NCBI RefSeq assembly: GCF_029873635.1
Contig: NC_080423.1
Span: 99,572,991-99,636,990, forward strand
Length of the DNA stretch: 64,000 nt
Direction: 5' to 3'
Source of the DNA: Malania oleifera
Lineage: Eukaryota > Streptophyta > Magnoliopsida > Santalales > Ximeniaceae
The stretch's first letter is position 1. Every line of letters starts with the position of its first letter. The position numbers and the translations under genes were made by a program. The notes below the pieces were generated by a model. It saw only the letters and a list, made by a program, of their open reading frames with translations. It had not been told where the DNA came from and made no database searches. Below, piece after piece: positions 12,029 through 60,325 of this stretch.

Positions 12029-12270
12029 TTCATCGACGAGCCCGTTCTTCGTTGACGAGTCCTTCACAAATTTTATCGATGAGACTCTGTATTCGTCAAC
12101 GAAATTCAGGTTGCCTCAAAACCCCTCTCGGCATTTTCTCGTCGACGAGCCTCTGTGTTCGTCGACGAATTCTCTTAAGCCTTCGTCGACGAATCCCCTG
12201 TATTCGTCGACGAAGTCCTGCTGATCCCCCCTTTTTCCGTGAGTCCTTCCAAAGTTCAATGTCGTCGACG
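12029..12270. repeat. Palindrome cluster, TTCGTCGACGAA type, in LTR F1
   Basis: Nine copies of a 12-base palindrome or close variants (CTCGTCGACGAG, TTCGTCGACGAA, ATTCGTCAACGAAA, CATCGACGAG) are separated by 15-30 bp of unrelated sequence. The cluster lies immediately upstream of the LTR's TATA-like run when read on the minus strand. Confidence 0.85.
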
Positions 12271-12378
12271 GCCTCCTTCTATTTTTGGGTTCCATATCCC
12301 TTTTCTTTTATTGTTTAACCACCATTTTATTCGGGTCGTTACATATAAGATTTTTAAAAATTTGCCCATTGAACAGTG

Positions 12379-12630
12379 TTCAGATGTCTGAAGAGTCGAG
12401 ATCAGTCATTTGAAGTTCCTGAAATCCTTTAAAAAATGAACTGGACACAGGTTCAGATGTCTGAAGAGAGGGTTCAGTTGTCTGAGGTGTCAGGTTCAGA
12501 TGTCTGAGGTGTTAGGTTCAGATGTTTGAAGTATCGAGTTCAGACGTCTAAACAGCTACTGCCTATTTGAGATTTGTCCTAGAAAATCTTTAGACTTCTG
12601 AAGTGTTGAGTTGAGACGTCTGAAGTGGTT
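12379..12630. repeat. Palindrome cluster, TTCAGACGTCTGAA type, in D-family solo LTR
   Basis: Nine copies of a 14-base palindrome, for example TTCAGATGTCTGAA at 12379-12392 and TTCAGACGTC at 12539, with short spacers. It is at the LTR position where the element at 15752 carries a different word (CAGGC-GACT-GCCTG). Confidence 0.85.
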
Positions 12631-13418
12631 CTGTGTGCTGTTCAATCAACTGTAGTTCCTCCCGTGAACAGTATTCAAATGGCTGACAACTGTAACCCTA
12701 CTTTAGTATTTTGCTCATAACTTTTTTTGTATAACTCCAAATTAGGTTTTCTTGGTGTCAAAAGAAATCTAAAAGAAAATCATACAACTTTCATGTTGAA
12801 CACATTTTAAAATAAGGAGTTTTTGATTTAGAAAAATTCACCTCAATTCGGATGTATAAAAACTAACAGTATTTGGAAAAACTCTTTTTGGTGCTTTTCA
12901 TTCCAAAAATGATTCTAACCTTTTTAAAATAATTTTTGACCTTATAAAAATATTTTCCAAGTATTTTAAAAGGTATCTAGGTCCAAGAAGTTAACCTAAG
13001 AGTTTCATAATATTTCATACGATATTTTAAACATTAAAGCACTTACATGAGACTTCTAAGACATTAACATTCTAGGTTCTTGAGTCTTCATGCTTTGTCC
13101 TTGGATTGAGTCAATCTTTTCTTTAAGCTTCCATATTCTTTGAGTTTTCTCACTTTGCCTTTCTTTGGCTCTTTTGACTTTAATATTCCTTGACTTTCAA
13201 CAACTCATTCATGTCCTTATATTCTTCAAGGTTTAATATATCATCTTTAAATCCATGTTTTGACTCTTTTAAGCTTCATTTCATCCTTGTGAGCACTTTG
13301 ACCTTATTTTCTTATATATGAGCCCTGAGACAACATTACTCACACAAATATGTTAAATTCCACTTGTTTGTTAGTATCAAAACAAGATAACAAGATTTTA
13401 AGCCTTGTAAGGCCAACA

Positions 13419-14800
13419 ACTTTTACTAATGAAATCTTATTTGTGCGTAACTCCTAATCCTTCTCGTCTAAAATATGGATTGGTACTTCTTCATATGATA
13501 GAGTGTCACTAACTTTTAACGACTCATAACTTATCATATGAGAAGGGTCTGGAACGTACTTATTTAACATTGAGATATGAAATACATCATGAATTCTCGA
13601 TATTGCAGGAGGTAGGGCAATTCTGTAAGCGACTGGACCAATCTTCTCCAATACCTCGAATGGTTCAATATACCTAGGGGCTTAGTTTGCCCTTTTTACC
13701 AAACCTCATGATTCTTTTCATTGGAGCAACTTTTAAAAATATATTATCCCCCACTTCAAACTCCAACTCACACCGACAAGTATTCACATAACTCTTTTGC
13801 CAACTTTGAGTGGTTTTTATTTTGTCCCGGATGAGCTTAATTTTCTCAGAAGTTCTTTGTATAATCTCAAGACCTAAAAGTTGTCATTCGCCAACCTCAT
13901 CCCAATATAATGGGGATCGATACTTTCGACTATATAATGCTTCATACGGTACCATCTCTATGCTGGACTGATAATTGTTGTTATAGGCGAACTCAACTAA
14001 CGGAAGATACTGAATCCAACTTCCTTTGAAATCCAATACACAAGATCTCAACATATCCTCCAATATCTGAATGGTTCTCTCCGATTGTCCATTAGTTTGA
14101 GGATGAAATTTCATGTTGAAAGTAAGTCGTTATCCCAAGGCTCTTTGCAAACTCTTCCAGAATTGTGATGTGAATCATGGATCTCAATCTAATATGATAG
14201 ACATGGGCACACCATGTAGTCTAACTATCTCTTGAACATACAACTCTGCAAGCTTGATTATAAAGTAGTTAACCTTGATTGGAATAAAGTGAGCGGTCTT
14301 CGTTAGAGGATCAACAACCACCTAGATGGTGTTTTGTCCATGGAGTGCTAGAGGTAGCCCAATTACAAAATCCATGGAGATGTGCTCCCATTTCCACTCA
14401 AGAATATGGAGTGGTTGTAGTGGTCCTACTGGTCTTTGATGTTCAGGCTTTACTTGCTAACAAGTAATACACTGTTCCACGAATTGTGCAATCTCCTTTT
14501 TCATGTTATTCCACCAAAAAGACTCTTTCAAGTCCCGATACATCTTCGTGCTTCCAGGATGCACTGTATAAAGAGATCGATAAGCTTCTTCCAAGATTGT
14601 TCTTTTGATATCTTTGTCATTGGGCACACACAATCTAGTTTGGAATCTCAAAACTCTATCATCAGAGATGTTAAAGTCTCCCTTGAGTCCACTTTGTACC
14701 TTACCCATAATCTTCACTAGCTCTGCATCTTCCATCTGTGCAACCTTAATCTTTTCTAGTAAGGTATGTTGGATTACCAAATTAGCAATGAGAGCTTGAT
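13419..14800 (-). pseudogene. Element E: integrase domain, broken
   Basis: This is the integrase part of a Gypsy pol, which inserts the DNA copy into the chromosome. From right to left (minus strand) one sees the zinc-binding region (YRSLYTVHPGSTKMYRDLKE, FVEQCITC, near 14457-14780), the catalytic core end (MKFHPQTNGQSERTIQILED and [16 protein letters not shown], 13884-14114), and the C-terminal region ([30 protein letters not shown], 13454-13651). Stops and frameshifts separate these pieces. The order and motifs are those of Tekay-type chromoviruses. The reading frame is cut at 13419-13423 by a solo LTR and resumes at 8883. Confidence 0.85.
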
Positions 14801-14879
14801 GATTTCCTCCACTATTTCCACACCAATCTTTCCAGGTCCATCATGATTTGATGTTGCATCGCCATTGCCTAGACTTATG

Positions 14880-15751
14880 CATTCATTAACTTTCGACTTA
14901 ATACATCTGCTACCACGTTGACTTTTCCCGGGTGATAGTTGATGGTGCAATCATAATCTTTGATTAATTCTAACCATCTTCTCTGTCTCATGTTTATTCC
15001 TTTTGTGTGAAAAAGTATTTGAGACTTTTATGGTCTGTAAAAATCTCACACCTTTCACCATATAGATAGTGTCTCCAGATCTTTAGTGCGAATACCACAA
15101 TTGCTAGTTCCAAATCATGTGTTGGATAATTCTTCTCGTACTCCTTGAGTTGTTGAGAAGCATATGCAATGACCTTCCTCTGTTGCATTAATACACACCT
15201 GAGCCCTTTTCGAGATGCATCACTGTAAATCACAAAACCATCTTCTCCTGATGGAATTGTCAACACTGGGGCAGTGATGAGTCATTGCTTTAATTCTTGA
15301 AAGCTTTGCTCATATTCATCAGTCCACTCATACTTCACATTCTTTCTAGTCAACCTCATCAGAAGACCAGATATTTTAGAACACTCTTCCACAAATCGAT
15401 GATAATATCCTGCCAGACCTAAGAAACTCCTGATCTCATGAATATTCTTCGGTCTCGCTCAATCCACTACTGCCTCTATTTTAGTTGGGTCCACAGAAAT
15501 ACCATCCTTAGATGTCACGTGCCCTAAGAATGCAACTCTTTCTAGCCAGAACTCACATTTCTTAAGTTTGGCATAGAGTTTTTTTTTCTCTTAGTACTTT
15601 GAGTATTAGCCTTAAATGGTTCTCATGTTCCTGGGGGCTTTTTGAATAAATCAAAATATCATCAATGAAGACCACCACAAATTTATCTAAATATTCACGA
15701 AAGACCCTGTTGATAAGGTCCAAAAATGTGGCAGGAGCATTGGTTAGTCTT
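14880..15751 (-). pseudogene. Element E: RNase H and second half of reverse transcriptase
   Basis: The minus strand carries RNase H ([38 protein letters not shown], 14994-15266), which removes the RNA template strand. Upstream of it is the reverse transcriptase thumb and palm, including the catalytic [12 protein letters not shown] near 15640-15670. Stops are scattered. The domain is split exactly at 15747-15751 (AGTCT) by the complete Copia element 15752-23586; the first half of the reverse transcriptase lies at 23587-24170. Confidence 0.85.
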
Positions 15752-18076
15752 GTTGGCCTTACAAGGCTTAATATCCTATTTTGATGCTAACAAACAAGTA
15801 GAACTTAACATGTTTTATTTAAGTGATATATTTTCAGGACTCAAAGATAGAGCGTTGAAGAATTGATGAAAGCTTGTACTTCAAAGAATGAATTCAATAT
15901 GAAGCTTAAAGCATGGATTCAAAAATGAATTTAAAGATAAAACTTGAAGATCATAAGAGCATAAGGATTAAAGAGAACTTGATGAAAGCTCAAAGAAAGA
16001 TGAAGCAAGTATAAAGACCTCAAGGAATTCAAGGATTGGAAATTTAAAGGAGTTTATAGGAAATTTCATGTAAGTACTTCAAATAATTTCAATATGGATA
16101 CATGAAACTCTTAGGTTAATTTATTGGACCTAAATACCTTTGAACATACTTGGAAAATATTTTTATAAGGTAAAAAATTGTTTCAAAAAGGTTAGAATCA
16201 AGTTTGGAATGAAAAGCACCAAAAAGAGGATTTCTCAAATGCCGTCAACTTTTCTACACCTGCATAGATGTGCATTTTTATCTATCAACAAATATTTATT
16301 TTAAAAAGTGTTCAACATAAAAGTTGTAGGGCTTTTCTCTTAGATTTCATTTGATACCAAGATCATCAAATTTGGAGTTATACAGAAAAAGTTATGACCA
16401 AAAAACAGAAGGGTGCTCGAAGTTGATAGCAGCATGTGTGCATGCCAGGCGACTGCCTGAACATGCCAGGCGCCTAAGTGGACATGACAGGTGACTGCCT
16501 TAGTTCTAGTAGGCGACTGCTAGGCTACTGCCCCTGCTGTTCTTTTAAATAATTTCATGGCAGACGACTGCCAAGCGGCTGTTTTGATTTTTCTCATAAT
16601 GGTCAAATTTTTAAATGGGGTTGTTTGTGGCTCGAAATTTATGGAAACTTGGGGGGTATTTCAACACACATGGGGACCAAGTTACTTACCTTTTAAAGTC
16701 TATAAATAAGCCTCAAATGTTATTGAATCAACACACCAAAAATTAAAATTCAGCAAAAATTCAGCGTTCTCTCAAATTGCTCTCAAACTCTCAAGGCTCT
16801 CTCTTGCTCTCAACTTGCACGAAGCTTACTAAGTTCTTGTTGATTTTACTCACCAAGTTTGTGCTACAATTATGAAATATTTCATTCATTGAAAGAATTA
16901 AATTGGTGATATACTTCCTTGAGTTTCAATTTGAATATTCATATTGTTATTTACTTTGAAGTATATAGTTCTGAATTGTTGTACTAATCAGCTCTTTTAG
17001 GAGCAAATTCTTTGTACACAAATATTTGATTTGTATCTTGTAGATTGACAATTCCAAGGGTTGTTTGGATCGTTGGCTAAGTAAAGTGATATTGCTTAGA
17101 GAGGCGGGCTCTAGCCTATGTAAGGAGTGAACGGACGAGGGGATATCATTTAGAGAAGGCAGGCTCTAGCCTTAACCAAGAAGTGTTGTAAAGGTTTGTT
17201 CCACCTGTCAATGGAACAAGTTTAGTGAATCCTTTGGTGGTTTGCCAAAGGTGAGGACGTAGGCTGGGTATAAGTAGAACCTTGTAAAAATCCCCGTCTC
17301 ACTCTCTCTTTCCCTACTATTTATTTTCAGCACATTGAAATTGCGTGGATGATTTATTTGATAATCATATATACTACGTAATATAGAAATCAAGTAAACT
17401 TAAAGTTTAATTTTGATTTGGGTTGGGGAAGCCGAAAGAGAGTACGTTGGTTATACCATATCTTGCGGAAATCATACGGGAGTACGTTACTTGGTTGACA
17501 GCCCAAGGATAAATTAACTGAGAGTTTAGTTGAGTTCTAAATATTGAGAAGAGTGTGAATGTGTTGTTGAAAAGAATATTGAAGAAACAAATCTATATCA
17601 ACAAAGTATAAATTATAATTCAACTACAGGGCTTACAAATTCATATCCAGGGCTGACAACAAAAGATGTATTGTGATTGAATGGTATAGAGCTTGAGATT
17701 GATTGGATAGTATTTGTATTCCAAAAGTGCTAAATCTTGAATTTTACATCAATCTTATTATGCTGAAGTGAATTTATATTTGGCAATCAAATTGGGTGTA
17801 TTGGTTTGGAAATTGTGATTAATTGTTTGATTGTTTCTACTTTCAAAGTGTGGTTGAAGATTGAATGTTTGATTGTGTTTAATTGATTGGTTGTTTAATT
17901 GTGTTATTGATTGGATAAAAGAACTAAGTTCTTAATTGATTAAAGAATTAAACAAACAAGTCAAGAATTGGTTAAAAGAAATAAAAGAAGTTTAAGGTAA
18001 CTTAAAAAGAAATTAAAAGAAATTTTTAGAATACAATTCACCCCTCTCCCCTCTTGGGAAGCTATTCCTAATTTCA
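15752..18076 (+). mobile_element. 5' LTR of element D
   Basis: It runs from TGTTGGCCTTACAAGG to CTATTCCTAATTTCA. It holds the promoter: TATA motif TCTATAAATAAG at about 16700, preceded by the palindrome cluster at 16440-16580. The repeated GAGGCGGGCTCTAGCC units at about 17100-17170 lie in the transcribed part. Confidence 0.92.
16440..16580. repeat. Inverted-repeat word cluster, CAGGC-GACT-GCCTG type
   Basis: Five to six copies of a short stem word, the clearest being CAGGCGACTGCCTG at 16446-16459 (arms CAGGC/GCCTG, loop GACT); others are CCAGGCGCCTAAG, CAGGTGACTGCC and GGCAGACGACTGCC. It sits about 120 bp upstream of the TATA motif. The 3' LTR has the same cluster at 21960-22095. Confidence 0.8.
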
Positions 18077-18078
18077 AT

Positions 18079-18090
18079 TGGTATCAGAGC
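18079..18090 (+). promoter_or_regulatory. Primer binding site of element D
   Basis: TGGTATCAGAGC, a perfect complement to the 3' end of initiator tRNA-Met, starts two bases after the LTR end. Confidence 0.93.
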
Positions 18091-18133
18091 GGGGTTATAG
18101 CAACTCTTAATTAGAAGCTATAAAAATATCATA

Positions 18134-19550
18134 ATGGCTAACTTAGGTGTAGCTCCTTTTGGTGATGGACAATCTTCAACTACGCCTCCTATCTTTTGTG
18201 GTTTGAACTACACGTTTTGGAAAAAGAGAATGCAAATCTATCTCCAAACAATGAATTGGAAAGTATGGGAAGTTGTTATAGATGGAGATTAAATTCCTAC
18301 TAAGATAGTAGATGGAAAACAAATCCCAAAAGAGAAGAAAGATATGACCGATCAAGATTATAAAATGCTCCAAATAAATTAGTGCTATAAATGTTTTATA
18401 TTGTGCCTTTGATGCTAATGAATTTAATCGAGTAATGGCTTGTAAATCAGCTAGGGAAATATGGGATAAGTTAGAAGTTACTTATGAAGGAACAACGGAT
18501 GTTAGGGATAATAGGGTTGATATGCTCACAAGCGAGTATGAAGCCTTTAAGATGAATTCGGATGAATCAATTACAAATTTGTTTATTAGGTTCACTCACA
18601 TAATCAATTCCCTAAATGCACTAGGAAAAACCTACACTACTTATGAAATGATAAGGAAAATTCTTAGAGGGCTACCAACCATATGGGAACCAAGAGCCAC
18701 TGCCATAACTGAGGGAAGAAATTTGAAAAACACTTCCTTAGATGAACTTATAGGTTCTCTCCTTACATATGAAATGGCAATGAATAAAAAGAATGGAAAA
18801 ACCAAAGCCCAAGAATCAACAGCCTTTAAAATATTAAAAGAAAACTCAAGTAGTGAAATGGATGAAGATGAAGAAGCCTTCATATCTAAAAAGCTAGCAA
18901 GGATACTAAGAAGGAGAAACAAATTTAAAAGAAGAAATCAAGACTCTGAATCAGAAGAAGAAGATATCAAAAAGAAATCAAAGAATAAAACTCCTAAATG
19001 CTACAATTGCAATAAAGTTGGACATTTAAAACCGCAATGTCCACTATTAAAGAAAGCGTCTAAAAATAAAAATAAGAAGGCCATGAAAGCCACTACTTGG
19101 GATAGTACAAGTAGTTTGGATAATGAAATAAGTGACCAAGAGGTTGCTTACACGTGCTTTATGGCATGGGATAAGGAAGAAAGCTCCTCAACTAAATCTT
19201 CAAATAATTCTTGTTGTGATGAATCAAGTGATGAGGGTATGCCATCTTATGATAAACTTCAAAATGATCTATTCAAAATACATAAGATGTTGATGAAAGC
19301 AAATAAACAAAACACCTCATTGAAGAATAAGAATGAAAGTTTAATGAAAGAGTTAGAATTCCTAAAGATTGCTGAAAATGAAAAAGAATCAAAACTCATG
19401 AAAATAGAAAATAAGTATGATGCTACAATAAAAGAATTAGAATCAAAACACCTTGCTAAAAAAGAAAAAGATTTACAAATTAAAGAATTAGAAAGCAAGA
19501 ATGAAAAGATGATAGAAGACCTTTGATCCCTATCCTCTATAGAATATAAG

Positions 19551-19608
<58 letters not shown>

Positions 19609-20065
19609 CTGAATTAGAGGATAAGATAAGAAAACTATCTCTAGAATTAGAAAAATCACTAAAGAATGTTGACAACAAGAAAGACATTGAAATAAATAAT
19701 CTCAAAAATCAGATTAAAGATAAAGAAAATGTCATTTATAACTTTACAAAAGGAAAAACAAACTTTGAAAAAATGGTAGGCTCCCAAAGAATGTCTCTAA
19801 ACAAAGAAGACATTGGATTTAATGGAATTGAAAATAAAAAGAAAAGGAATCTTTACATGGTTTATTTCTCAAAAGCCTCCAAAGATAATGCAAGCACATC
19901 CTTTAATGCTTACACCAACACCATATGCTATCAATGTAAGAAAAATGGGCATATAAAGTTTGAATGTCCATTTAAGAGAAAGGGTGTGAAAATTAAACAA
20001 GTATAGAGAATTAAGGAATCATCCCTTGTTAAACCAATCGGACCCACAAAAGTATGGGTAGCAAG
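18134..20065 (+). pseudogene. Element D gag (Copia nucleocapsid, coiled coil), interrupted
   Basis: The gag probably starts at the ATG at 18134 (MANLGVAPFGDGQSS) and is broken by early stops near 18290 and 18380. A long open stretch follows at 18435-19526 (363 residues). It shows the Copia gag core (ACKSAREIWDKLEVTYEGT, IRKILRGLPTIWEPRATAIT), a basic linker, and a CCHC knuckle CYNCNKVGHLKPQC. A Glu/Lys/Asn-rich region then follows that looks like a long coiled coil. A stop at 19524 and an AT microsatellite (19553-19606) break it; the same frame type resumes (ISELEDKIRKLSLELEKSLK) and ends with a second knuckle CYQCKKNGHIKFEC and GPTKVWVAR, where SIRE pol would begin. Gag packages retrotransposon RNA. 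Confidence 0.85.
19553..19606. repeat. AT microsatellite within gag
   Basis: Roughly 27 AT units lie between two halves of the coiled-coil coding region, translating as alternating Ile and Tyr. Expansion here separates otherwise continuous gag sequence. Confidence 0.95.
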
Positions 20066-21337
20066 ATGAAAGACTAGTTCATAAGTGAAAAACTCCATGG
20101 ATTAAGTCATTCCCTTTAAAAATTGAGAAAGTAACTTAATTCATAATCTACAAACAAACTAGTTAAAATAGAATAACTCAAAGAAGAGTTTAAGATAAGT
20201 TTGAGAATAAATGACTATATGAGATGCTATATGCTTACATGCCTATATGATATGCTTGACTTATATTGAAAATTTATGGCTCATTATGTTGAAAATTTGA
20301 GCATGAGCTTATTGAGTATAAGCATGAATTTTGATATAAGATTAATTCTTGATCATGAATGCTATTGATAGAATTACTGCTTTTATATTGATATCCATGA
20401 GCTATAAGAGATGTAATGGTTATATTGGTATTTATGAGCTGTGTATAATGTGATAATGACTTTGGTATCTATAAAGTCTTTGATATCCATGATTATTTTT
20501 GGTATCACATTTTAAAAATTTTAATTGGTATCACAATTTTTTTTTTTTTAAAAGCTCACTTGGTATCACAATCTAAAAGTTAAATTTGCTTTTGAGCATG
20601 ACAAGTATAATTGTGAGCATGATATGACATTAATGATATTGGCATGATATTGATATTTGATACATGATGTGGATCAATATTTTGAAATATAGGATGATGA
20701 AAGCAAAATTGATAACAAAATTGAATGTGTTAAATTCAGGGGGAGTGTTATGTCATATTGCTTATATTATGATTGTTTCCCTATTAATCAATTCATAGAA
20801 TTTTCAATTGGTTTCATGAATTAAATTTTCAATTGGTATCATGAAGTTTAACTAGATATCATGAATTCAATTTTAAATCTGTATCATAAAATTAACAATT
20901 GAAATCTTGAATAATGTCTAAAGGAAAAAGTTGTTAGTAATGAAGTTACAACTCATATACTTGAATGTTATAACATACTACACTTGCTATATTGAAAAAC
21001 TATAAATTGAGCATGTTCATATGTTTGATACGTATGTTTGGTGATATGCTCAACATGTGATTTTACTTGAACTTAATCATTTTTTTTTCTTTTTGATGGA
21101 TGTCAAAAGGGGGAGAAGTTTTAAAGCAAAAATTGAGCATAATATTGCAAATTGCAAAAACTGAGTATGAACATAATATATATCAAAAGGAGAAGTATTT
21201 GATAGTGATGAGCATGATTGTAAAAGAGGTTTTGAAATTGATATTGATCTTGCAAATATTGTTAAGATGATGCTTATTGAAAGGGGGAGTCTTCTTAAGA
21301 CTCACTCCAATTTTTGCTTCTTGTTTGTCATCATCAA
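20066..21337 (+). other. Non-coding interior of element D
   Basis: This is 1.27 kb without a credible reading frame. It is rich in TTGGTATCA and GAGCATGA words and carries several GGGGGAG purine runs (about 20747, 21107, 21283) resembling the terminal polypurine tract. In full SIRE elements pol would stand before this point. Confidence 0.7.
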
Positions 21338-21350
21338 AAAGGGGGAGATT
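21338..21350 (+). promoter_or_regulatory. Polypurine tract of element D
   Basis: AAAAAGGGGGAGAT immediately precedes the 3' LTR start TGTTGGCC at 21351, the standard plus-strand primer position. Confidence 0.9.
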
Positions 21351-23586
21351 GTTGGCCTTACAAGGCTTAATATCCTATTTTGATGCTAACAAACAAGTAG
21401 AACTTAACATGTTTTGTTTAAGTGATATATTTTTAGGACTCAAGGATAGAGCGTTGAAGAATTGATGAAAGCTTGTACTTCAAAGAATGAATTCAATATG
21501 AAGCTTAAAGCATGGATTCAAAAATAAATTTAAAGATAAAACTTGAAGATCATGAGAGCATGAGGATTAAAATAAGAAATTTCATGTAAGTACTTCAAAT
21601 AATTTCAATATGAATACATGAAGCTCTTAGGTTAATTTATTGGACCAAAATACCTTTGAACATACTTGGAAAATATTTTTCTAAGGTGAAAAATTATTTC
21701 AAAAAGGTTAGAATCAGTTTTGGAATGAAAAGCACAAAAAAGAGGATTTCTCAAATGCTGTCAATTTTTCTACACCTGCATTGATGTGCATTTTTCTCTG
21801 TCAAGAAATATTTATTTTAAAAAGTGTTTAACATGAAAGTTATAGGGCTTTTCTCTTAGCTTTCATTTGACACCAAGATCATCAAATTTGGAGTTAAATA
21901 GAAAAAGCTTTGACCGAAAAATAGAAGGGTGCTCGAAGTTGACAACAGCATGTGTGCATGCCAGGCGACTGCCTGAACATGCCAGGCGCCTGAGTGGACA
22001 TGATAGGTGACTACCTTAGTTCTAGCAAGCAACTACCAGGCTACTGCCCCTGCTGTTCCTTTAAATAATTTCATGGCAGGCGACTGCCACGTGGCTGTTT
22101 TGTTTTTCTTATAACGGTCAAACTTTTAAAGGGGATTGTTTGTGGCTCGAAATTTATGGAAACTTGGGGGATATTTCAACACACTTGGGGACCAAGTTAC
22201 TTACCTTTTAAAGTCTATAAATAAGTCTCAAATATTATTGAATCAACACACCAAGAATTAAAATTCAGCAAAAATTCAGCATCTTTCTCAAATTGCTCTC
22301 AAACTCTCAAGGCTCTCTCTTGCTCTCAACTTGCACGAAGCTTACTGAGTTCTTGTTGATTTTACTCACCAAGTTTGTGCTACAATTATGAAATCTTTCA
22401 TTCATTGAAAGAATTAAATTGGTGATATACTTCCTTGAGCTTCAATTTGAATATTTATATTGTTATTTACTTTGAAGTATATAGTTATGAATTGTTGTAC
22501 TAATCAACTCTTTTGAGAGCAAATTATTTGTACACAAATATTTGATTTGTATCTTGTATATTGACGATTCCAAGGGTTGTTTGGATCGTTGGCCTAGCAA
22601 GGGGATATTGCTTAGAGAGGTGGGCTCTAGCCTATGTAAGGAGTGACCGGATGAGGGGATATCATTTGGAGAAGGCAGGTTCTAGCCTTAACCAAGGAGT
22701 GTTGTAAATGTTTGTTCCACCCATCAACGGAACAAGTTTAGTGAATCCTTTGGTGGTTTGCTAAATGCGAGGATGTAGGCTGGGTATAAGCCGAACCTTG
22801 TAAAAATCCCCGTCTCACTCTCTCTTTCCCTACTATTTATTTTCAACACATTGAAATTGCGTGGATGATTTATTTGATAATCATATATACTACGTAATAT
22901 AGAAATCAAGTAAACTTAAAGTTTAATTTTGATTTGGGTTGCGGAAACCGAAAGGGAGTACGTTGGTTATACCATATCTTGTGGAAACCATACGGGAGTA
23001 CGTTACTTGTTTAATAGCCCAAGGATCAATTAACTGAGAGTTTAGTTGAGTTCTAGATATTGAGAAGAGTGTGAATGTGTTGTTGAAAATCATATTGAAG
23101 AAACAAATCTTTATCAGCAAAGTATAAATTATAATTCAACTACAGGGCTTACAAATTCATATCCAGGGCTGACAACAAAAGATATATTGTGATTGAATGG
23201 TATAGAGCTTGAGATTGATTGGATAGTATTTGTATTCCAAAAGTGCTAAATCTTGAATTTTACATCAATCTTATTATGCTGAAGTGAATTTATATTTGGC
23301 AATCAAATTGGGTGTATTGGTTTGGAAATTGTGATTAAATGTTTGATTTTTTCTACTTTCAAAGTGTGGTTGAAGATTGAATGTTTGATTGTGTTTAATT
23401 GATTGGTTGTTTAATTATGTTATTGATTGGATAAAAGAACTAAGTTCTTAATTGTTTAAAGAATTAAACAAACAAGTCAAGAATTGGTTAAAAGAAATAA
23501 AAGAAGTTTAAGGTAACTTAAAACGAATTAAAAGAAATTTTTAGAATCCAATTCACCCCCCTCTTGGGAAGCTATTCCTAATTTCA
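21351..23586 (+). mobile_element. 3' LTR of element D
   Basis: Homologous to 15752-18076 end to end and about 90 bp shorter; a deletion is visible near 21565, where the 5' LTR has an extra segment. It ends CTATTCCTAATTTCA, followed by the target duplication AGTCT. Confidence 0.92.
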
Positions 23587-24170
23587 AGTCTGAATGGCAT
23601 GACTAAGAATTCATAATGACCATATCTCGTTCGGAATGCAGTCTTTGGATCATCTTCTGACTTGATTTTTACTTGATAGTATCCTGATCGGAGGTCAATT
23701 TTAGAGAAGACTTGTGTTCCTTAGAGTTGATCAAACAGATCACCTATGCGAGGTATTGGGTACTTGTTCTTAATTGTTACTTTATTTATTTTCCGATAAT
23801 CAATACACATTCTCATCAATCCATTTTTGTTTTTAACGAATAGTACCGGTGCTCCCCATGGTGATACGCTGGGTCTGATGAATCCTTTGTCGAGCAACTT
23901 TTGTAATTGTTCCTTCAGTTCTTTTAATCCTACCGGTGCCACTCTGTATGGAACTTTGGATATCGGTGTCGTCCCTGGTAGTAGGTCGATAACAAACTCG
24001 ACTTCTCGGTCAAGAGGTAGCCTAGGTAAATCCTCAGGGAACACATCCGAGAATTCCCTTACTATTGGGATATTTAAAAGCTTTAATTCTTTCCTTGGTG
24101 CCTCCACCATGCATGCTAGGTACCCCTGACATCTATTCAAGAGTAATCTCTTTGCTTGGATAGCCCACAA
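23587..24170 (-). pseudogene. Element E: first half of reverse transcriptase
   Basis: The minus strand gives [59 protein letters not shown] and [20 protein letters not shown], the fingers region of a chromovirus reverse transcriptase. It is highly similar to the fragment at 3600-4046. A stop lies near 23718. The frame is split at 23587 by element D and continues at 15751. Confidence 0.87.
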
Positions 24171-25928: not shown

Positions 25929-25959
<31 letters not shown>

Positions 25960-30043: not shown

Positions 30044-30045
30044 AA

Positions 30046-33430: not shown

Positions 33431-33437
33431 ATCTAGA

Positions 33438-41488: not shown

Positions 41489-41529
41489 TTCCCTTGGCTA
41501 GCTACCCACTATGCTAGCATTGATTACCA

Positions 41530-44710: not shown

Positions 44711-44774
<64 letters not shown>

Positions 44775-49560: not shown

Positions 49561-49598
49561 GGTGTTTACGTGACAGGAATGTCATCTATATCCAAGGT

Positions 49599-49988
49599 TG
49601 TTAGGACCCTGTGAGCATCCAGATCAAAGTGACACCAAGAATTTTACGTGGTTCGGTCAATAACAACCTACGTCCACGGAGCACACACCAAAATTCACTA
49701 ACTCGCCGGAAAATATTACAATTCTCTCTCTCTCTCTCTTCTTCCCTCTCAACTCTCCTAAGCTTCTTTGCTCTCTCTACACTCTCTCTGTGCTGTTCCT
49801 GCACTACTGTGCTATATAAAACATCTTCCACAACCCTCTTTTTATAGGCTTGGAAGTTTAAATGATAATCAATACAAATCAATACAAATTGGAAGTTTAA
49901 AACTAAGAGATTAATGGAGAATAAAAGCATGCGTTTTCTGACTCAGCCTAACACGTCTCCAGTTGTGTTTTTAGCTCCATCTCTACCA
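49599..49988 (-). mobile_element. 3' LTR of Copia H
   Basis: 390 bp; TGTTAGGACC at its left edge and CTCTACCA at its right, next to the polypurine complement ATCTCCCACTTGG. CCTATAAAAAGAGG (about 49836-49849, minus) is a good TATA box. Confidence 0.88.
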
Positions 49989-50063
49989 ATCTCCCACTTG
50001 GATACAGAGACACCTCTTCAACCAGAGTATCATGAATAAATGATATGCTCATAATATGTCTCT

Positions 50064-50625
50064 TCAAGCATGAAGACCAACTGAAGTTGAACACAACTTC
50101 AGTTTCTCTGTAGTCACCATCTTCCCGTCTACTCGATTCTTGCAGACTAATCTGATGGTTGTCATCTTCACAACTAGTGTAAAAATTCCGGTGTAGTCAA
50201 TCCATTCCTTCTGTTCAAATCCTTTGACTACCAACCGAGGCTTGTACATTCTAGAGCCGTCATGCTCCTCTTCGATTCTATACACCCACTTGTTGTGAAG
50301 GCCTTTGGGCAACTTCCATGTTTTGTTGGAGGTGAGGAACTTCATCTCATCCTTCATTGCAAGCTCCCACTTGCTCGTATCTGCCACCTGACATGCTTTA
50401 TCATTGCATTTAGGCTCTCCTCCATCTGTAGGAAGTAAGTAATCAATATACCTTCTTTCTGGTATACGTGACCGAGTAGCTCTCCTAAGCTCCAGAGCTG
50501 GAGTAGGAGATGGTGGTTCGACAATCTGCTCCACTGGTTCCTCCACCTAAGGATTCTCGGTATTCTGCTGATGTGTCCCAACACATTCATGGGTGTTTAT
50601 CTGGAAACTAACCATTTTCTGTTTC
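50064..50625 (-). pseudogene. Copia H: integrase tail / reverse transcriptase start
   Basis: The minus strand gives PVEQIVEPPSPTPALELRRA, RSRIPERRYIDYLLPTDGGE, then KWELAMKDEMKFLTSNKTWK and KWVYRIEEEHDGS, the linker and first part of a Copia reverse transcriptase. It is joined directly to the gag-pre-integrase region at about 50610, so the integrase core is deleted. Near 50140 it jumps to the extreme 3' end of pol. Confidence 0.85.
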
Positions 50626-51233
50626 TTGACTATACAATCTTCACACATGTCAACCTACACTGACTGTAGATCACTCAATTTTTCCTTTGAGTGCTTCACC
50701 CTGAGTCCCTTCTCGCTCATGTGACTAAGTTGTTGGTTCCAGATGTTGCTGTTGTCATTTCCTATACCAACTAAAATAGACATGGAGGCATTGGAGGTTA
50801 GAAAAAGTGTTTCGCTTTTCTTACCTCGCGCAATCGTTAGTACACCCTTTGAAACTTTCCATTCATTGCCAATGAATTTCATCGTGTATCCCTCATCTTC
50901 CAGCTGACCAACTGAGATCAAATTCTTTCTTAGGTCTAGAATATACCTGACATCCTTCAGCTTCCATACTGACCCGTTTAAATTGATCTTCATAACTCTC
51001 TTGCCGGTTATGTCGCAAGGGTGATCGTTGCCAATGTACACCTTATCAAAATTACCTGGTGTGTACTCCTCTAGGCAATCTCTGCAGCATGTGGCATGAA
51101 ATGAGGCTCCAGAGTCTAAGACCCAAGACTCCTGCTTGCTTTCCCAAGAGCAGATCAATATCTCATCATTCTCAGAAGCAATATTTGCTTCTTTCTTTGC
51201 CCTCGTCTCGAATTTTTTCTTCTGACTCCTGCA
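50626..51233 (-). pseudogene. Copia H: protease and gag-pre-integrase region
   Basis: The protease active site WVLDSGASFHATCC is intact, followed by KLKDVRYILDLRKNLISVGQ and SNIWNQQLSHMSEKGLRVKH. The zinc-site histidine of WHQRL is Asn here. A stop near 50655 ends the open frame before CEDCIVKKQK. Confidence 0.85.
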
Positions 51234-51984
51234 CTAGTTCATGAAATGACCACTCTTTCCACAGTTCCAGCACTCAATAACTTTAGTGCTTTGAGAACCT
51301 GTGTCCTGAGTACCTCTGGGATTTCTCGGCCTAGATTTGCCGCAGTTGTTTGATCGTCCATGCCTGTTTCCTCTACTTCGACTCTCCATGTTCAAGGCTG
51401 AACTTGAATTGGAGCTATGGTTCGGCTGCATTCTTATTTCCTTCATCAAAATCATGCTGATAACCTCATCATATACAAGCTTTGATTTTCCTGTGGAGCT
51501 ACTGATGGTAGTGACGACACCATTCCAATTTTCAGGAAACTGACTAAGAATCGGTAAAGCCCGAATCTCATTATCAAACATTATCCCAACTAAGGTGAGT
51601 TGATTAGACAACTCATTGAAGTTATTCAGATGCCTGCTGAAACTCTCACCTGCAGACATGTTCATCGTAAATAGTTTTTTCATGAGATGTACCTTATTTG
51701 CGGTTGAAGGCTACTCGTACATATTAGAGAGCGCATCCATAAGAGACTTGGTGGATGTTATATGCTTGATATTGAACGCCACAGATTTCGACAACGTCAT
51801 TCTGATGGCTCCGAGGGCTTTTCAATCAAGAAACTCCCACTCGTCCTCGTTCATGGATGTTGGCTTACCCTTCAACGGTAAGTGCAATTCCTTCCCAAAC
51901 AAATAATCTTCTATCTGCATCTTCTAGAAATCGAAATTGTTCCCGTTGAACATTTCGATTTTTGAGCTCTTTTCATTTGACATC
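51234..51984 (-). pseudogene. Copia H: gag
   Basis: It starts at ATG 51982 (MSNEKSSKIEMF) and shows the same core as G1 (MTLSKSVAFNIKH, FTMNMSAGESFSRHLNNFNE). It ends in a Ser/Arg-rich tail and a knuckle CWNCGKSGHFMN, where a stop precedes the last cysteine. Stops near 51940, 51822 and 51712 break the frame. Confidence 0.85.
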
Positions 51985-52640
51985 TTAATTCACTAATCTA
52001 GAGATGAAATTAGCTCAAATGGATAGCACAGTTGGATCCGAAATGATCGAAAACCCTAGAAATGGTTCAAGTCACTCGAAAAACTGACCCAAAACGACTC
52101 CGAAAAGCTTAGTCAAAGTTTGGTCAAACTTGCTGACGTGGCGCTGATGTGGCAGTGGGGTCCGCCGATGACATGGTAGATGTGGGGCCCACTAATGACG
52201 TGGCAATTGACAGGCAGGTGGCCCGCCGCTGATGTGGCATTGCTAACGTCGCACCCCCAGCTACGTGGCACACTCCTGCTAACGTAGTGCGCTAACGTGG
52301 CACTTAGGCTGAGGACAGACTCGGGTCAGGTACCGGCTCTTAGATCAACCTGGGATGAGTCTGTGTCCGAGTCTGGTCGGGTTATCAGCATGTCGGGTCG
52401 AGGTGGATCGGGTGAAGAAACGCGTGCGGCGCGTCGCCAGAGCATGGAGAGGCGTATTGCTCTGGCAAGGCGCGTGTGGGCGCGCGTGGCCTTATCTGAA
52501 CTCCGTTCAAGCTCCGGAGGACACCCTTCTCTTTCTCTCGGCGAGAAGAATACGATGGTGGCCTCAAAATGTAGTTTTGATCTACTAGACAGAGTTCTGA
52601 ATTTCAGGATCACTTCCATTCTCGCTTTTGTGCTTCAACC
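51985..52640 (-). other. Copia H untranslated leader with TGACGTGGCA repeats
   Basis: No gene. Nine variants of TGACGTGGCA at 52132-52310 and a GC-rich segment to about 52560. Open frames in both directions here have no family resemblance. Confidence 0.7.
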
Positions 52641-52654
52641 GGGCTCTGATACCA
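52641..52654 (-). promoter_or_regulatory. Primer binding site of Copia H
   Basis: TGGTATCAGAGCCC on the minus strand, two bases from the LTR end at 52657; complementary to initiator tRNA-Met. Confidence 0.92.
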
Positions 52655-52656
52655 CT

Positions 52657-52777
52657 TGTTAGGACCCTGTGAGCATCTAGATCAAAGTGAAACCAAGAAT
52701 TTTATGTGGTTCGGTCAATAACGACCTACGTCCATGGAGCATACACCAAAATTCACTAACTCGCCAAAAAATATTAC

Positions 52778-52845
<68 letters not shown>

Positions 52846-53090
52846 CTCTTCTTCCCTTTCAGCTCTCCTCTGAGCTTCTCTGCTCTCTCTGCACTCTCCG
52901 TGTGCTGTTCCTGCACTACTGTGCTATATAAAACATCTTCCACAGCCCTCTTTTTATAGGCTTGGAAGTTTAAATGATAATCAATACAAATTGGAAGTTT
53001 AAAACTAAGAGATTAATGGAGAATAAAAGCACGCGTTTTCTGACTCAGCTCAACGCGTCTCTAGTTGTGTTTCTGGCTCCATCTCTAACA
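52657..53090 (-). mobile_element. 5' LTR of Copia H
   Basis: 434 bp, matching 49599-49988 closely; a CT array of about 65 bp (52780-52844) accounts for most of the extra length. TATA box CCTATAAAAAGAGG lies at about 52950-52963 (minus). Confidence 0.9.
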
Positions 53091-53560
53091 AAGGTGTTGT
53101 CACTTGGTAGGACAATATTGTTCTTCAATTTTCTTGGAAACTATATGGTTCTGTATATCAGGGGAAAAACGGTGATTCTTCTTGTTTTTTCAACCTCTCG
53201 CAAGACATCTCAAGAGTTTTTCGTTGCTAAATTCATATTACTAATTAAATAAATTCTACAATTTTTTTTTAAAGAAAAACACGTATTCAAAAAGTCAAAA
53301 CTAATCAAATGACTCAAATGAAATTAAAAATGAACCTTTGGGCCTCATTTGAAACTTGGAAAAATATTAGGGAAATAAAGGGAAAGGAAATTTTAAAGGA
53401 ATCAACTTTTTCATATTTGGTTATTTAGGAAAGTGAGAATGAAAATAAAAAAAATATTAAATTTACAAACAAAAATTTGATTTTACACATCATTAACATT
53501 TCATTTTTATTAATTTTTAATCATATTAGAACATATTTTCATATTTAATATCACTTGATA
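53091..53560 (+). other. Displaced 3' flank of the P450 pseudogene
   Basis: AAGGTGTTGTCACTTGG resumes the sequence broken by Copia H and follows the intact gene's flank (37562-37880) to about 53420, then AT-rich DNA. No gene. Confidence 0.8.
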
Positions 53561-55221: not shown

Positions 55222-55559
55222 TGGTATCAGCACCACTTTCGGTCGATACCTTAAATTTTTTCCTCTAGCCGATTCAAGCTCCAATTAGCTTCCGCTCAAT
55301 ACGATGGTTCACATGGTGACCATCAAACTCATTTCTACCAATTACCACATGTGGCATAGCCAATTCATTTCATTGCTTGAAAGTCAAGATCTCATGGGCT
55401 TCTTGGACGGGTCTTCCTGCACCTATAACCTTGGCTCGAGAGGGTTCCAATCAAGTTCCTAATTCAGCTTACAAGAAAAGGCATACACAAGACTGGATGT
55501 TGGTCAACCTCATTTACACTTCTTTTATAGAGGAGTGTATGGCCGAGGTTGTTAATTCC

Positions 55560-57574
55560 TATTGACTTTTTGAGTCCTATCTCGTTTTTGATAATGACAA
55601 ATACAAGGTATTTAATGTTTGTCGAGTTTGTGTGCAGGATCAAATTGGCAAAATCATATGGTAGCACATATTGGCTTGAAGGAAAATAAGACCCAAAGTG
55701 TTTAATTCCTTTGTAGTTTTTAAATCGAGTTTTTAATATTATTTAAATTCCAACGGCCTGTAATAATTGGTGCATATCATGTATGTAGGATCTATAAGCT
55801 CAAGACCGTAGATAGACCTTAAGGATCAACGCCGAATTTTTTCGATCGACTCTCAATGGCACTTGACCGACCATAGGACCCACAATATTGCATGAAAATG
55901 TCCCTCATAATCATGTAAATAGGGACAACTTCATAAGAAGAATTGGACCGAAATGCACAAATTTGGCATTGTCAGTCAACCAAACATCTAACACACTGAG
56001 CACTTCGATCAACCGAACCTCCCCAGGGTCAATGGTTTGACCCTTCGGTCGATCGACCTCAAAATGAGCAGTAATGCTCTCGTCGACTGAACTGGCACGT
56101 GGGGAGATCCCAATGGGCTGGTTGATCGAACTTATAGTACAAAAATGGCTTAGTGGACCGAACACCCATGTTTGGTACGCCGAACCCAATCCGGTCGGCC
56201 GAACCTCGGAGGTTCTAAAATCGCCTTAAGCCTGGTCCACCATCTTCCTAGTTCAAATTCTTCCTGGTCGACCGAACCATAGAAATGGTCGATCGACCCC
56301 CTCAAGTTGCTTGAATTTTACCGAGGTTAATTGAGGTTAAAACATGGTTAACGTCTTAAATTCTTTTATAACAATTTTAATAATTCCCATGGTGTCCCCA
56401 ACTGTCATAATTCTTCCCATGTCTATAAATATGAGTTCATTTGCTCAATTAAGAAGATTAGGGATTTAATTAGCCCAAATTTCCTCTGAAATTTTATAAG
56501 CCCTATTTCTTCATATAAACCCTATACACTTACATAGTACCATTCCTTTGAGAAATCAAGCTTTGTGAGTATTTATATGTTGTTCTATTTTTCTAGGATA
56601 CTCTCATTTTATTCATTATTGTTGATTTTCATATTGAGAGTAGAGCAAAAGTTTTTCCCCCAATTTTATTTAATAAATATTTGTGTGGGAAAAATCTTAT
56701 AGTTAAGTGAGTCTTTGCATTATTATTGCAAGACTCATTGGGCTTGTATTTTTTTGTGTGCAAAAATATTTTTTACAAGCTCATATTTGAATATCTCTTT
56801 GAGTTGTGACATTGAGAAAATAATTTTTGAGATATTCTAAATTTCTCTTGGTACAAATCTTTGAAACCCTAACAGTGATTGAGATTCATCTTTACATAGT
56901 TTCAAGGATTAGCTTGTTGACACACTCTTGTGCTTGATTTTAGATAATCATTATATTGAGTATTGATTGCACACATATAACACTGATATTATAGTCCTTA
57001 CATCATTGATGTGCATTGATTATTACATGTGTGTATCGGTACATAATCTGCTTGTGATAAAAGCAATTTGAATTGTACAAAAATTTGTATTTCATTGTTG
57101 TACTCTAGGCGTGACTTGAGGGGGTTTGATCTAGCCCGTAAGGATTAGGTTGGGGTCAGCCCTGTGAATTTGATCTAGGGCCTTCTTCGACCCATAAGGA
57201 GAGTTTGTAAAGGTTGAGGTCAGCCCTAGAAATTTGACATGGTTATAATCGGTGTTGCTCCACCCATTAAGTGAGCAATAGTGATAACCCTCGGGCTTGC
57301 AAGCTGAGGCAGGGATGTAGGCACAGTTGGTTGAATCAAGATAATATATTGTGTGTGTACTTTATATTTCTGTAATTTACTTTCTGCACTGTCTTTTTCA
57401 GCACATGTATGTTGTATGCCTAATTCATTATATGCCTTACATGTGTTGATTGGGTTTACGATTATTTAGACAGACCCTAGTTTGTGATTATATTGTTGTG
57501 GAATTTAGTTGAACCTAAGTATAAACTTTTAATTACCCAATTCACCCCCTCTTGGGAATACACCAATTCCAACA
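55560..57574 (+). mobile_element. Solo long Copia LTR (K, SIRE-like)
   Basis: 2015 bp, from TATTGACTTTTTGAGTCC (first two bases TA instead of TG) to CCCCTCTTGGGAATACACCAATTCCAACA-type end at 57574, flanked by ATTCC on both sides. The ending in ACCCCCTCTTGGGA resembles the D family, but the rest is different. TATA motif GTCTATAAATATGAG at about 56418 is preceded by a cluster of GGTCGATCGACC-type words (55838-56310). Confidence 0.85.
55838..56310. repeat. Palindrome cluster, GGTCGATCGACC type, in LTR K
   Basis: About ten words such as CGGTCGATCGACC, TTCGATCGAC, GGTCGACCGAACC, GGTCGGCCGAACC and TTCGATCAACCGAAC, with spacers of 15-60 bp, ending about 100 bp upstream of the TATA motif. Confidence 0.8.
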
Positions 57575-57935
57575 ATTCCTCAACAACTCATGATACTTGG
57601 TTGACTCTCGACGCATCATTTTCTTATAGCTCCAAGACAAGAGAAATTCAATTGAAAGACAAAATTCAGTTAATGCAACGTGGCTCTCGTAGTGTGGCTG
57701 AATATGCTCGTTCTTTTTACTCTCTTCGTGATCAATTAACTTAGTGTTATTGGCAAACCGCTTGATGACACTAATAAGGTACATTGGTTTCTTTGTGGTC
57801 TTGGATCAGATTTAAAAAATTTTCATCGTCTATGTTGTCTTAGATGCCACAACCTTCCTTCACCAATTTGGTGCCCAAAGTTTTGAGTCATGATGTAGCG
57901 ACCCGAAAAAATTTCGTTCAAATTTCTCTAATACC

Positions 57936-58095
57936 ACTTGTAATAACCTGAATATTTCATATTATAATAATCACTGATACAAACAGTGGAAGTCCTTAAA
58001 TGCTAATTATCAGAGTACTAAACTATCCCAATATCACATTAAAGATCTAAATTATAAAATAATGGATATCACTTAGTTTATTTTGTAGGCATGCC
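57936..58095 (-). mobile_element. Fragment of a Gypsy-type LTR end
   Basis: On the minus strand an LTR-like end GGTTATTACA is followed by AGTGGTATTAGAG, similar to a primer site. Only about 150 bp remain before a SIRE fragment begins. Assignment is tentative. Confidence 0.4.
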
Positions 58096-58099
58096 TAAG

Positions 58100-58483
58100 A
58101 TCGTCCTCCTCCAAGGACAGATGGTACTTGGATAGTGGGTGCTCATGGCACATGATCGGGGACAAGGGCAAATTTACATCAATTGTTCCCAAGGATGGAG
58201 GTTGTGTAACATTTGGGGGAAATGCCAAAGGATGTATAATTGGGGTAGGTAAGGTTGGTAAGGATTCCTCTCTTACCATTGATAATGTTTTGCTGGTTGA
58301 TGGACTGAAACATAATCTACTTAGAATAAGTCAATTTTGTGACATAAGATATAAAGTATCTTTTGAAAATGACACCTGTATAATAGAAAATAAAACAGAT
58401 CACAAAGTGCTTTTTATTGCTGATAGATATGAAAATGTTTATACTACCTCTCTTGATAATTTAACTTCACAACAAGTAACATG
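58100..58483 (+). pseudogene. SIRE-type Copia protease / gag-pre-integrase fragment
   Basis: It reads RWYLDSGCSWHMIGDKGKFT, with the aspartic protease motif DSGCS intact, then GGCVTFGGNAKGCIIGVGKV, LLVDGLKHNLLRISQFCDI and TDHKVLFIADRYENVYT, all diagnostic of SIRE/Maximus Copia pol. It is open for about 128 codons and is stopped by the D-family LTR at 58484. This part of pol is exactly what element D lacks. Confidence 0.87.
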
Positions 58484-60325
58484 TGTTGGTCTTACAAGGC
58501 TTAAAATCTTGTTATCTTATTTTGAAGCCAAAAAACAAGTGGAATCTAACATATTTGTGTGAGTAATGTTATTTCAGGGCGCACATATGAGAAAGTAAGG
58601 TCAAAGTACTCACAAAGATCAAATGAAGCTTAAATGAGTCAAAGCATAAATTTAAAGATGATATATTAAACCTTGAAGAATATGAGGTCATGCATGATTT
58701 GTTGAAAGCCAAGGAATGTTTAAAGTCAAAAGAGGCAAATAAAAGCAAAGTGAGAGAGCTCAAAAAATATTAAAGCTTGAAGACCAAAAAAGAGCCAAAG
58801 CGAGCATGAAGACTTGAAAGTTTAGAATGTTAATGTCTTAGAAGTCTCATGTAAGTGCTTTAATGTTTAAAATATCATTTGAAATATTATAAAACTCTTA
58901 GGTTAACTTCTTGGACCTAGATACCTTTTAAAACTTGGAAATTTTTTTTATAAGGACAAAAATTATTTTAAAAGGGTTAGAATCATTTTTGGAATGAAAA
59001 ACACCAAAAAGAGTTTTTCCAAATGCGGTCAATTTTTATAAATCCGCATTGAGGTGAATTTTTCTCTATCAAAAACTATTATTTTAAAATATGTTCAACA
59101 TGAAAGTTGTAGGATTTTCTCTTATCTTTCTTTTGACACCATGAACACCTAATTTGGAGTTATATAGAAAAAGTTATGGCCAAAACACTGAAATGGGGTC
59201 ACAACTGTCAATCAATTGAACACTATTCACGGGAGGAACTTCAGCTGACTGAACAGCACACAGAACCACTTTTGACGACAGAAGTGTAACTTCAGACGTC
59301 TAAAGATTTTTTGCTGAATTTTTTTTTAGGCATAACCACCTCAGACGACTGAACCCGAAAGTTTAGTCATCTAAACACTGTTAACGAGCAAAAAATTTTC
59401 AAAATTTATTTTTTAAACATTAGTTTCTTGTGCACCAAACTTTCTAAAAACTTGGAAAATTATCTAAGGAAACTTGTTTGAAAGTCTATAAATACATGGT
59501 TTTGCAAATCAAAACAAACCAAGTATTGAAAAATCTGTTTGTGAAGCTGAAAGCACTCTTGTTCTTACAAGTTCTCTTGCTCACTCACTGCAAAACTCTT
59601 TTGCTAAGATATTCCGAAGTGCTAATCCTTCCTCCTCTGAATTTCTACTGCTAATCCTCATCTAAGAAGGATATTGGTGAATTCTACACTTGAACTTCAT
59701 TCTATTTCATATTGATATTTTACATTGAAGTATATAGTGCTGAACTTGTACTAACTTACTCTTTGTGAGAGTATATTTATACGCATATTATATCTTGTTT
59801 CTTGTAGTTCTTTGACATTCCAAGGATTGTTTGGATCGTTCGCTAAGCAAGGGGATTTTGCTTAGAGAGGCGGGCTCTAGCCTAAAGGAGTGACCAAACG
59901 AGGGGACATCGTTTGGTGAGGCGAGCTCTAGCCTAGTGAAGGAGTGTTTGAACGTGGGGTATCACTTGTAAAGGTTTTGTTCCACCCATCAATGGAATAG
60001 GTTTATTGAATCCTTTGGTGGATTTCCAAAGGCGAGAACGTAGGCTAGGTATAAGCCGAACCTCGTAAAAATTTCCATCTCAATCTCTCTTTCCCTATTC
60101 TTTATTTCCAGTGCATATTTAAATTGCGTGGATGGTTTAAATTTGAAAATCATATAAACTACATATATTTGGAAATCAAACAAACTTAAGGTTTAATTTT
60201 GATCTGGGTTGCGGAAACCAAAAGGGAGTACGTTGGTTGAACCATTCTTTGCGGAAACCATACAGGAGTACGTTACTTGGTTAAACACCCAAAGATAAAT
60301 TAACTGAGAGTTTATTTGGATTCTG
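58484..60325 (+). mobile_element. Truncated D-family LTR (fourth copy)
   Basis: It starts TGTTGGTCTTACAAGGC and follows the D LTR through the TATA motif (GTCTATAAATACATGG at about 59486) and the GAGGCGGGCTCTAGCC units (59868-59930) to about 60325, where homology stops roughly 500 bp before the LTR end. Four TTCAGACGTCTGAA-type words lie at 59238-59380. It inserted in the SIRE pol fragment. Confidence 0.85.

Follow-up and report, generated by a model that had tools for sequence, protein, structure and literature searches.

Among the retrotransposons of plants, the closest described counterparts of the elements analyzed here are the Sireviruses, a group of Ty1/copia elements whose long terminal repeats (LTRs) carry the so-called RM boxes. 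These are palindromic motifs with at least 8 copies in total per element, located in the upper LTR upstream of the TATA box; they were described in 13 Sireviruses, with words specific to each element, and a regulatory role was proposed for them (Bousios et al. 2010, PMC2829016). The RM boxes have a CGG-CCG core that forms a CpG island, except in Tnd-1, which is without the core, and they were called Sirevirus-specific relative to other Ty1/copia elements (PMC2829016). High variability and small-RNA mapping have been reported for the palindrome regions of Sireviruses (PMC5311732), and the Copia LTRs of maize carry hairpin-forming palindromes, while its Ty3 elements were without an obvious peak (Martin et al. 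2023, PMC10760457). For Ty3/gypsy elements, plastic 5' CpG islands were found in the Del LTRs of the monocot groups but not in those of the eudicot group, and it was suggested that they present silencing with a moving target (Cruz et al. 2014, PMC4029996). Here we describe arrays of short palindromic words upstream of the LTR TATA boxes of both Copia and Gypsy elements in one 64-kb stretch of the Malania oleifera genome (contig NC_080423.1, positions 99,572,991 to 99,636,990; hereafter the window), which is the evidence base for all results below.

A preliminary description of this DNA had placed palindromic words just upstream of several TATA boxes, and the words were found where it had located them. 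We scanned the whole window without using those coordinates, in 300-bp segments with a step of 50, scoring each segment by its maximum number of related near-palindromic 12-mers with a cut-off of at least 4 and using dinucleotide shuffles as the control. In this strict scan 39 of 1275 segments passed, compared to 1 of 3825 shuffled segments, and all 39 fell within the eight arrays below, so that the excess over shuffled sequence on which the preliminary description had staked its proposal was present and its list was complete at this level.

12029-12220, minus strand: F1 array in a gypsy-type solo LTR, made up of eight TTCGTCGACGAA-type words, with a TATA-like stretch at about 12008-12016.
29319-29495, minus strand: F2 array, seven TTCGTCGACGAA-type words; TATA at 29304-29312 and LTR 5' end at 29520.
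47835-48030, minus strand: J array, eight TTCGTCGACGAA-type words; TATA at 47822-47830 and LTR 5' end at 48138.
16445-16575, plus strand: D1 array, CAGGCGACTGCCTG-type words; TATA at 16700-16708.
21962-22090, plus strand: D2 array, word type as in D1 (CAGGCGACTGCCTG); TATA at 22215-22223.
12379-12630, minus strand: D4 array, located in a D-family LTR that the F1 solo LTR interrupts; TTCAGACGTCTGAA-type words.
59238-59380, plus strand: D3 array, TTCAGACGTCTGAA-type words, few and weak; TATA at 59486-59494.
55838-56300, plus strand: K array, up to 13 GGTCGATCGACC/GGTCGACCGAAC-type words, of which 3 distal ones are weak; TATA at 56423-56431.

Consensus words, picked after the arrays had been inspected, were then counted against 200 mononucleotide shuffles for each array. 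The counts were 9 in F1 (8 in the array and 1 outlier), 7 in F2, 8 in J, 13 in K, 5 in D1, 6 in D2, 12 in D4, and 7 in D3, while the shuffles gave means of 0.6-1.5 and maxima of 3-7. Imperfect words were common across the arrays, and D3 was the weakest of them, its 7 words being equaled by its shuffle maximum. The eight arrays are thus non-random palindromic clusters upstream of the LTR TATA box, in Copia as well as Gypsy elements.

The F1, F2, and J arrays share one layout of eight words (seven in F2) with a spacing of approximately 21-25-21-45-21-25-21 bp. The individual spacings were, for F1, 21-24-20-46-20-24-19, for J, 21-25-21-44-20-25-21, and for F2, with its one word fewer, 21-25-46-21-25-21. 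The four proximal words of F2 and J are centered at approximately -80, -59, -34, and -13 from TATA; F1 has a degenerate TATA, and its corresponding words are centered at -81, -61, -37, and -18. The center of the last word thus lies 13.5-18.5 bp from TATA in all three LTRs, and close to 13 bp in F2 and J. Word spacing and TATA distance were kept even though the identity of these LTRs is only about 55-60%: from TATA onward, 139/229 positions agree between F1 and F2, 128/225 between F1 and J, and 151/277 between F2 and J. The words are better conserved than the spacers, with identities of 59/70, 63/80, and 54/70 in word columns (F1-F2, F1-J, and F2-J) against 62/109, 51/115, and 48/109 in spacer columns. 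The word switching expected by the preliminary description was therefore not seen in this gypsy family, in which words and spacing are instead conserved jointly. It was also noted that 26 of the 34 departures from the F/J word are CpG transitions (26 words counted, of which three outside the arrays are doubtful). The CpG observed/expected ratio was raised in the arrays (F1 1.90, F2 1.42, J 1.33, and K 1.02) relative to the rest of the LTR stretches used (0.70, 0.80, 0.66, and 0.41, respectively).

The F1, F2, and J LTRs are homologous to one another, and their assignment was made through a degraded element, V, listed here with the F1 LTR.

9962-12343, minus strand: F1 solo LTR with target site duplication (TSD) TATAA at 9957-9961 and 12344-12348, inserted inside D4.
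41497-47164, plus strand: part of V, a degraded Ty3/gypsy element, with reverse transcriptase, RNase H, and integrase pieces at 42062-43958.
About 44365-44376, plus strand: polypurine tract (PPT) of V, followed by its 3' LTR at 44377-47164, which is without an array.

The domains of V occur in the order PF00078, PF17919, PF17921, and PF24626 (RVT_1, RNase H, H2C2, and SH3_Tf2-1 pieces), followed by the PPT and the 3' LTR, and on this domain order V is classified as Ty3/gypsy. A piece at 43974-44105, judged by its motif, may be a chromodomain such as follows the integrase in Del/Tekay chromoviruses, but a Pfam search of V for a chromodomain gave no hit at E up to 1. Downstream of TATA, F1 matched V3 at 73% over 186 bp (E 2e-27) and J matched V3 at 60% over 161 bp (E 1e-4), and F2 aligned less strongly, and in a different part, with V2 (63% over 201 bp, E 2e-6). 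These matches suggest that F1, F2, and J are LTRs related to Ty3/gypsy, F1 and J through homology to V and F2 through F1 and J and weakly through V2. Under the Del/Tekay U5 att type A definition, with GGG at -8 to -10 of the LTR (PMC4029996), the V1 end GGGGCGTCACA fits, while the F1 LTR end AGGTCGTGACA has GG followed by T at this site.

The D arrays lie in an element with Sirevirus structural signals and in related LTRs, listed here together with the K LTR.

15751-23586, plus strand: element D, a Sirevirus with LTRs at 15751-18076 and 21350-23586 and TSD AGTCT at 15746-15750 and 23587-23591.
18075-18090, plus strand: primer-binding site (PBS) junction of D; its gag lies at 18378-19526.
5990-7514, minus strand: D5, a D-family LTR from which the array stretch is absent and in which TATA is kept (6769-6777).
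55560-57574, plus strand: K LTR with TSD ATTCC at 55555-55559 and 57575-57579 and a polyC signal near its 3' end; it starts with TATTGA and not with TG.

Published Sirevirus criteria include several polypurine tracts, the last followed by AT/TG at the 3' LTR, a characteristic PBS junction, and a polyC-rich signal for the integrase some 21 bp away from the 3' end of the LTR (PMC2829016). Element D has four exact AGGGGGAG polypurine tracts (20738, 21108, 21282, and 21340), the last of which is followed by AT and then by the LTR TG at 21350; a fifth exact copy is located outside D at 35902. The 5' LTR/PBS junction CA/ATTGG plus TATCAGAGC is present as TTTCAATTGGTATCAGAGC at 18072-18090, the polyC-rich signal occurs near the LTR ends as CAATTCACCCCTCTCCCCTC (D1) and CAATTCACCCCCCTC (D2), and the gag is of Copia type (PF14223). 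Taken together, these four sequence features identify D as a Sirevirus of the Ty1/copia superfamily, and D3, D4, and D5 are LTRs of its family. K is probably a Sirevirus solo LTR, an assignment that rests mainly on the polyC signal CAATTCACCCCCTCTTGGG near the LTR end at 57574, because of its TATTGA start and the lack of a coding part. Between the outward-facing starts of the D4 and D1 Sirevirus LTRs, a gypsy pol fragment with RNase H and integrase pieces was observed at 13428-15750.

The D and K arrays resemble the RM boxes in consisting of repeated palindromic words, in their place upstream of TATA within the upper LTR, and in that the word differs by element. Their counts of 13 (K), 12 (D4), 7 (D3), 6 (D2), and 5 (D1) are per LTR array, whereas the published copy number refers to the whole element. 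The K word TGGTCGACCG agrees with the published Vitis RM word CGGTCGACCG at 9 of 10 letters (PMC2829016), and K has GGTCGNNCGACC-type words together with the raised CpG ratio given above. The CGG-CCG core is absent from the D words, as from those of the published Tnd-1, and the D arrays are not CpG-rich (observed/expected 0.44, 0.42, and 0.72 in the D1, D4, and D3 arrays and 0.37, 0.17, and 0.52 in the respective rest). Five of the eight arrays (D1, D2, D3, D4, and K) lie in Sirevirus LTRs, and since RM boxes are described by PMC2829016, those five represent a known feature. The suspicion of the preliminary description that such clusters had been reported before was thereby justified for Sireviruses, and also for the monocot Del elements in the form of variable 5' CpG islands (PMC4029996). 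Its further suggestion that the arrays share one position in Copia and Gypsy did not hold, as the last word is centered 117.5-132.5 bp from TATA in D1, D2, D3, and K compared to the 13.5-18.5 bp of F1, F2, and J.

We assessed the turnover of words among the D-family LTRs. The two LTRs of element D (D1 and D2) are 94% and 91% identical, and D3 and D4, which both have TTCAGACGTCTGAA words, agree at 88% in the 5' flank and at 69%, with large indels, in the array. Between D1 and D3 the word type differs within alignable flanks (73% and 81%), the array being 39% identical, the stretch from array to TATA 62%, and the leader 45%; in the D-family comparison, divergence is thus greatest in the array and in the leader. 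The preliminary description was thus right that word type turns over between close relatives, but the change from D1 to D3 spans words, spacers, and leader, none of which can be aligned, and so it is not a replacement of words alone. A weak local match between the D1 and D3 arrays (score 17, with 0/200 shuffles as good; 2/200 for D1-D4) indicates possible residual homology under the different words, and the two word types would fit either divergence in place or replacement by recombination.

The sharing of cassettes between families was considered and rejected: 10 of 11 cross-family array pairs were equaled by 21-200 of 200 mononucleotide shuffles and the remaining pair, D3-J, by 6/200, in a comparison that left out F2, D2, and the X arrays described below. 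The idea of exchangeable cassettes is accordingly only partly supported.

A looser scan, with arms of 5 and gaps of 0-6, flagged 58 of 1275 segments and 0 of 2550 shuffled ones. Besides the eight arrays it marked the X2 LTR (25851-26250), which belongs to a family X missed by the preliminary description, a Copia inner region (33201-33650), and clusters within 60301-61750 that could not be assigned to an LTR. Such arrays are therefore not exclusive to LTRs. The X arrays are as follows.

8290-8420, minus strand: X1 array, GTGGGNCCCAC-type words; TATA at 7964-7972; looser-scan score 3, below the cut-off.
25970-26130, plus strand: X2 array, holding 7 of 8 counted GTGGGNCCCAC-type words; TATA at 26415-26423.
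31880-32055, minus strand: X3 array, seven GTGGGNCCCAC-type words; TATA at 31572-31580; flagged by neither scan.

X1 and X2 share V sequence up to the PPT and the LTR start, from which family X appears to be gypsy-type. Of the counted words, 2/5 in X1, 2/8 in X2, and 0/7 in X3 match GTGGGNCCCAC exactly; in 200 mononucleotide shuffles the mean number of counted words was 0.3-0.4 and the maximum 2-3. The X words lie approximately 300-440 bp upstream of TATA, with the last word centered about 300-325 bp away and one outlying X2 word at -144. The CpG observed/expected ratio of the X2 array (0.54, compared to 0.92 in the rest) is opposite to the trend of the other arrays. GTGGGNCCCAC has been named as a TCP14 motif (PMC10391996), and by their letters the X words resemble this TCP site.

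Several other features of the window were noted. An array of AAACCGTCGACGGTTT-type words was seen at 61450-61600, with neither an LTR end nor a TATA box recognized alongside, and the looser scan flagged ATTAGTGACGGTTT...AAACCGTCACTAAT-type repeats at 60550-61230, which we take to resemble the sub-terminal repeats of CACTA DNA transposons. On the minus strand, a Copia element at 49598-53091 (LTR stretches 49598-49989 and 52656-53091) was without a strong palindromic array, its best looser-scan score being 3. Two copies at 36729-37566 and 48761-49598, 94% identical, appear by eye to encode the end of a cytochrome P450-like protein.

Our interpretation is that each array is probably a homotypic cluster of sites for a dimeric transcription factor, forming an enhancer in the U3 of the LTR promoter. 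Factors would bind the words and drive transcription, and since the families use different words, the factors probably differ as well; methylation of CpG in the words may help to silence the promoter. The layout of the F/J arrays is strict: they have two four-word blocks in which the members of a pair are separated by roughly two helical turns (21 bp), and the distance to TATA is fixed. This interpretation draws on the excess over shuffles, the place upstream of TATA, the joint conservation of F/J words and spacing, the X words matching GTGGGNCCCAC, and, by analogy, the published RM boxes, which agree in place and in dyad symmetry and for which a regulatory role was proposed (PMC2829016). Spacings of 19-22 bp accounted for 18 of 35 in F1, D2, D4, D3, and K combined, compared to 4.5 expected from random placement over the same spans; words dropped before this count were 1/9 in F1, 1/12 in D4, 2/7 in D3, 3/13 in K, and 1/8 in X2, and D1, X1, and X3 were left out. 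More tentatively, unrelated superfamilies may have converged on one promoter grammar, with homotypic palindromic sites placed upstream of TATA at intervals of about two helical turns. In such a grammar the word, and hence the factor, could be replaced as a block without loss of the architecture, and the gypsy version would be a rigid eight-site, two-block module locked to TATA.

A number of observations weigh against this account. The 19-22-bp range was set after the spacings were known, duplication of units would make the spacings inside one array mutually dependent, and only 1 of 6 spacings in X2 falls in that range. A general 10.5-bp phasing was not clearly seen: R was 0.35 in the F group, where it rose to 0.56 at 12, and 0.65 in the D group, compared to 0.73 at 9.5, so that only the 19-22-bp excess stands. 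The word columns of F1, F2, and J were picked by consensus match, which biases their comparison with the spacers toward the words. No factor is proposed here for the F/J, D, and K words. The gypsy LTR family V was flagged by neither the strict nor the looser scan, and D5 has lost the approximately 240 bp holding the array while retaining both flanks and TATA.

This loss of a whole array, together with the D4 spacings near 22 bp with similar spacers that resemble duplicated units, the high divergence of the D array region, and the similar clusters outside identified LTRs, would also suit functionless words that arose as by-products of the tandem duplication of a chance-palindromic short unit in a fast-evolving region. 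We regard such an origin as quite improbable, as the F1/F2/J words are more conserved than their spacers with spacing kept, and the palindromic character recurs across five word types on the same side of TATA. The main alternative, an effect mainly at the RNA level, seems unlikely but somewhat less so: transcription also covers the U3 of the element's 3' end, and the arrays can therefore fold into hairpins that would feed small RNAs and silencing, as has already been proposed for maize Sireviruses. The palindrome-rich cis-region of maize Copia LTRs is described as fast-evolving and tied to small RNAs (PMC10760457), reportedly also by Bousios et al. in 2016. Among the nine arrays folded (D2 and X3 were left out), the RNA was more stable than shuffles in F1 (z -4.67), K (-4.88), X1 (-6.68), and X2 (-5.10), moderately so in F2 (-2.73), J (-2.89), D3 (-2.93), and D4 (-2.41), and not clearly so in D1 (-1.49). 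A small-RNA excess over Sirevirus palindromes is likewise on record (PMC10760457, PMC5311732). However, any inverted-repeat array folds well, so fold stability is not independent evidence for an RNA-level role, and such a role leaves the fixed distance to TATA unexplained; within the factor-site interpretation, hairpins feeding small-RNA silencing may instead be a cost of the arrays. Retroviral RNAs dimerize through palindromic loops, and the arrays do lie within the transcribed 3' U3, but it is very improbable that they serve replication, for instance RNA dimerization or packaging, rather than transcription, as this would explain neither the tight link to TATA nor the many copies.

With respect to novelty, the published RM boxes belong to Ty1/copia Sireviruses, whereas the F/J and X arrays are found in Ty3/gypsy LTRs. 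Maize Ty3 elements showed no obvious peak of such structures (PMC10760457); here the RNA folds of the gypsy LTRs F1, F2, J, X1, and X2 are more stable than those of shuffles. The Del LTRs are like the gypsy LTRs of the window in their similar length and in having a variable stretch, rich in CpG, close to the 5' end, but the sections of PMC4029996 consulted describe no palindromic words, spacing, or TATA anchoring, and the Del islands are plastic where F/J words and their spacing are kept. Among the matches listed, no earlier account of palindromic arrays in the LTR of a plant gypsy element was recognized, in a search that mostly did not extend to the subscription literature. What is new is the set of gypsy arrays, in which words are conserved and geometry is fixed, plus a further gypsy-type family with TCP-like words, the rest being mostly of a known kind. 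The F/J arrays extend to Ty3/gypsy a feature described for Sireviruses and, being kept in three diverged LTRs, offer a concrete motif and spacing for tests of factor binding, methylation sensitivity, and small RNAs. If the superfamilies share a spacing grammar with interchangeable words, their LTRs would be natural experiments in enhancer turnover and escape from silencing.

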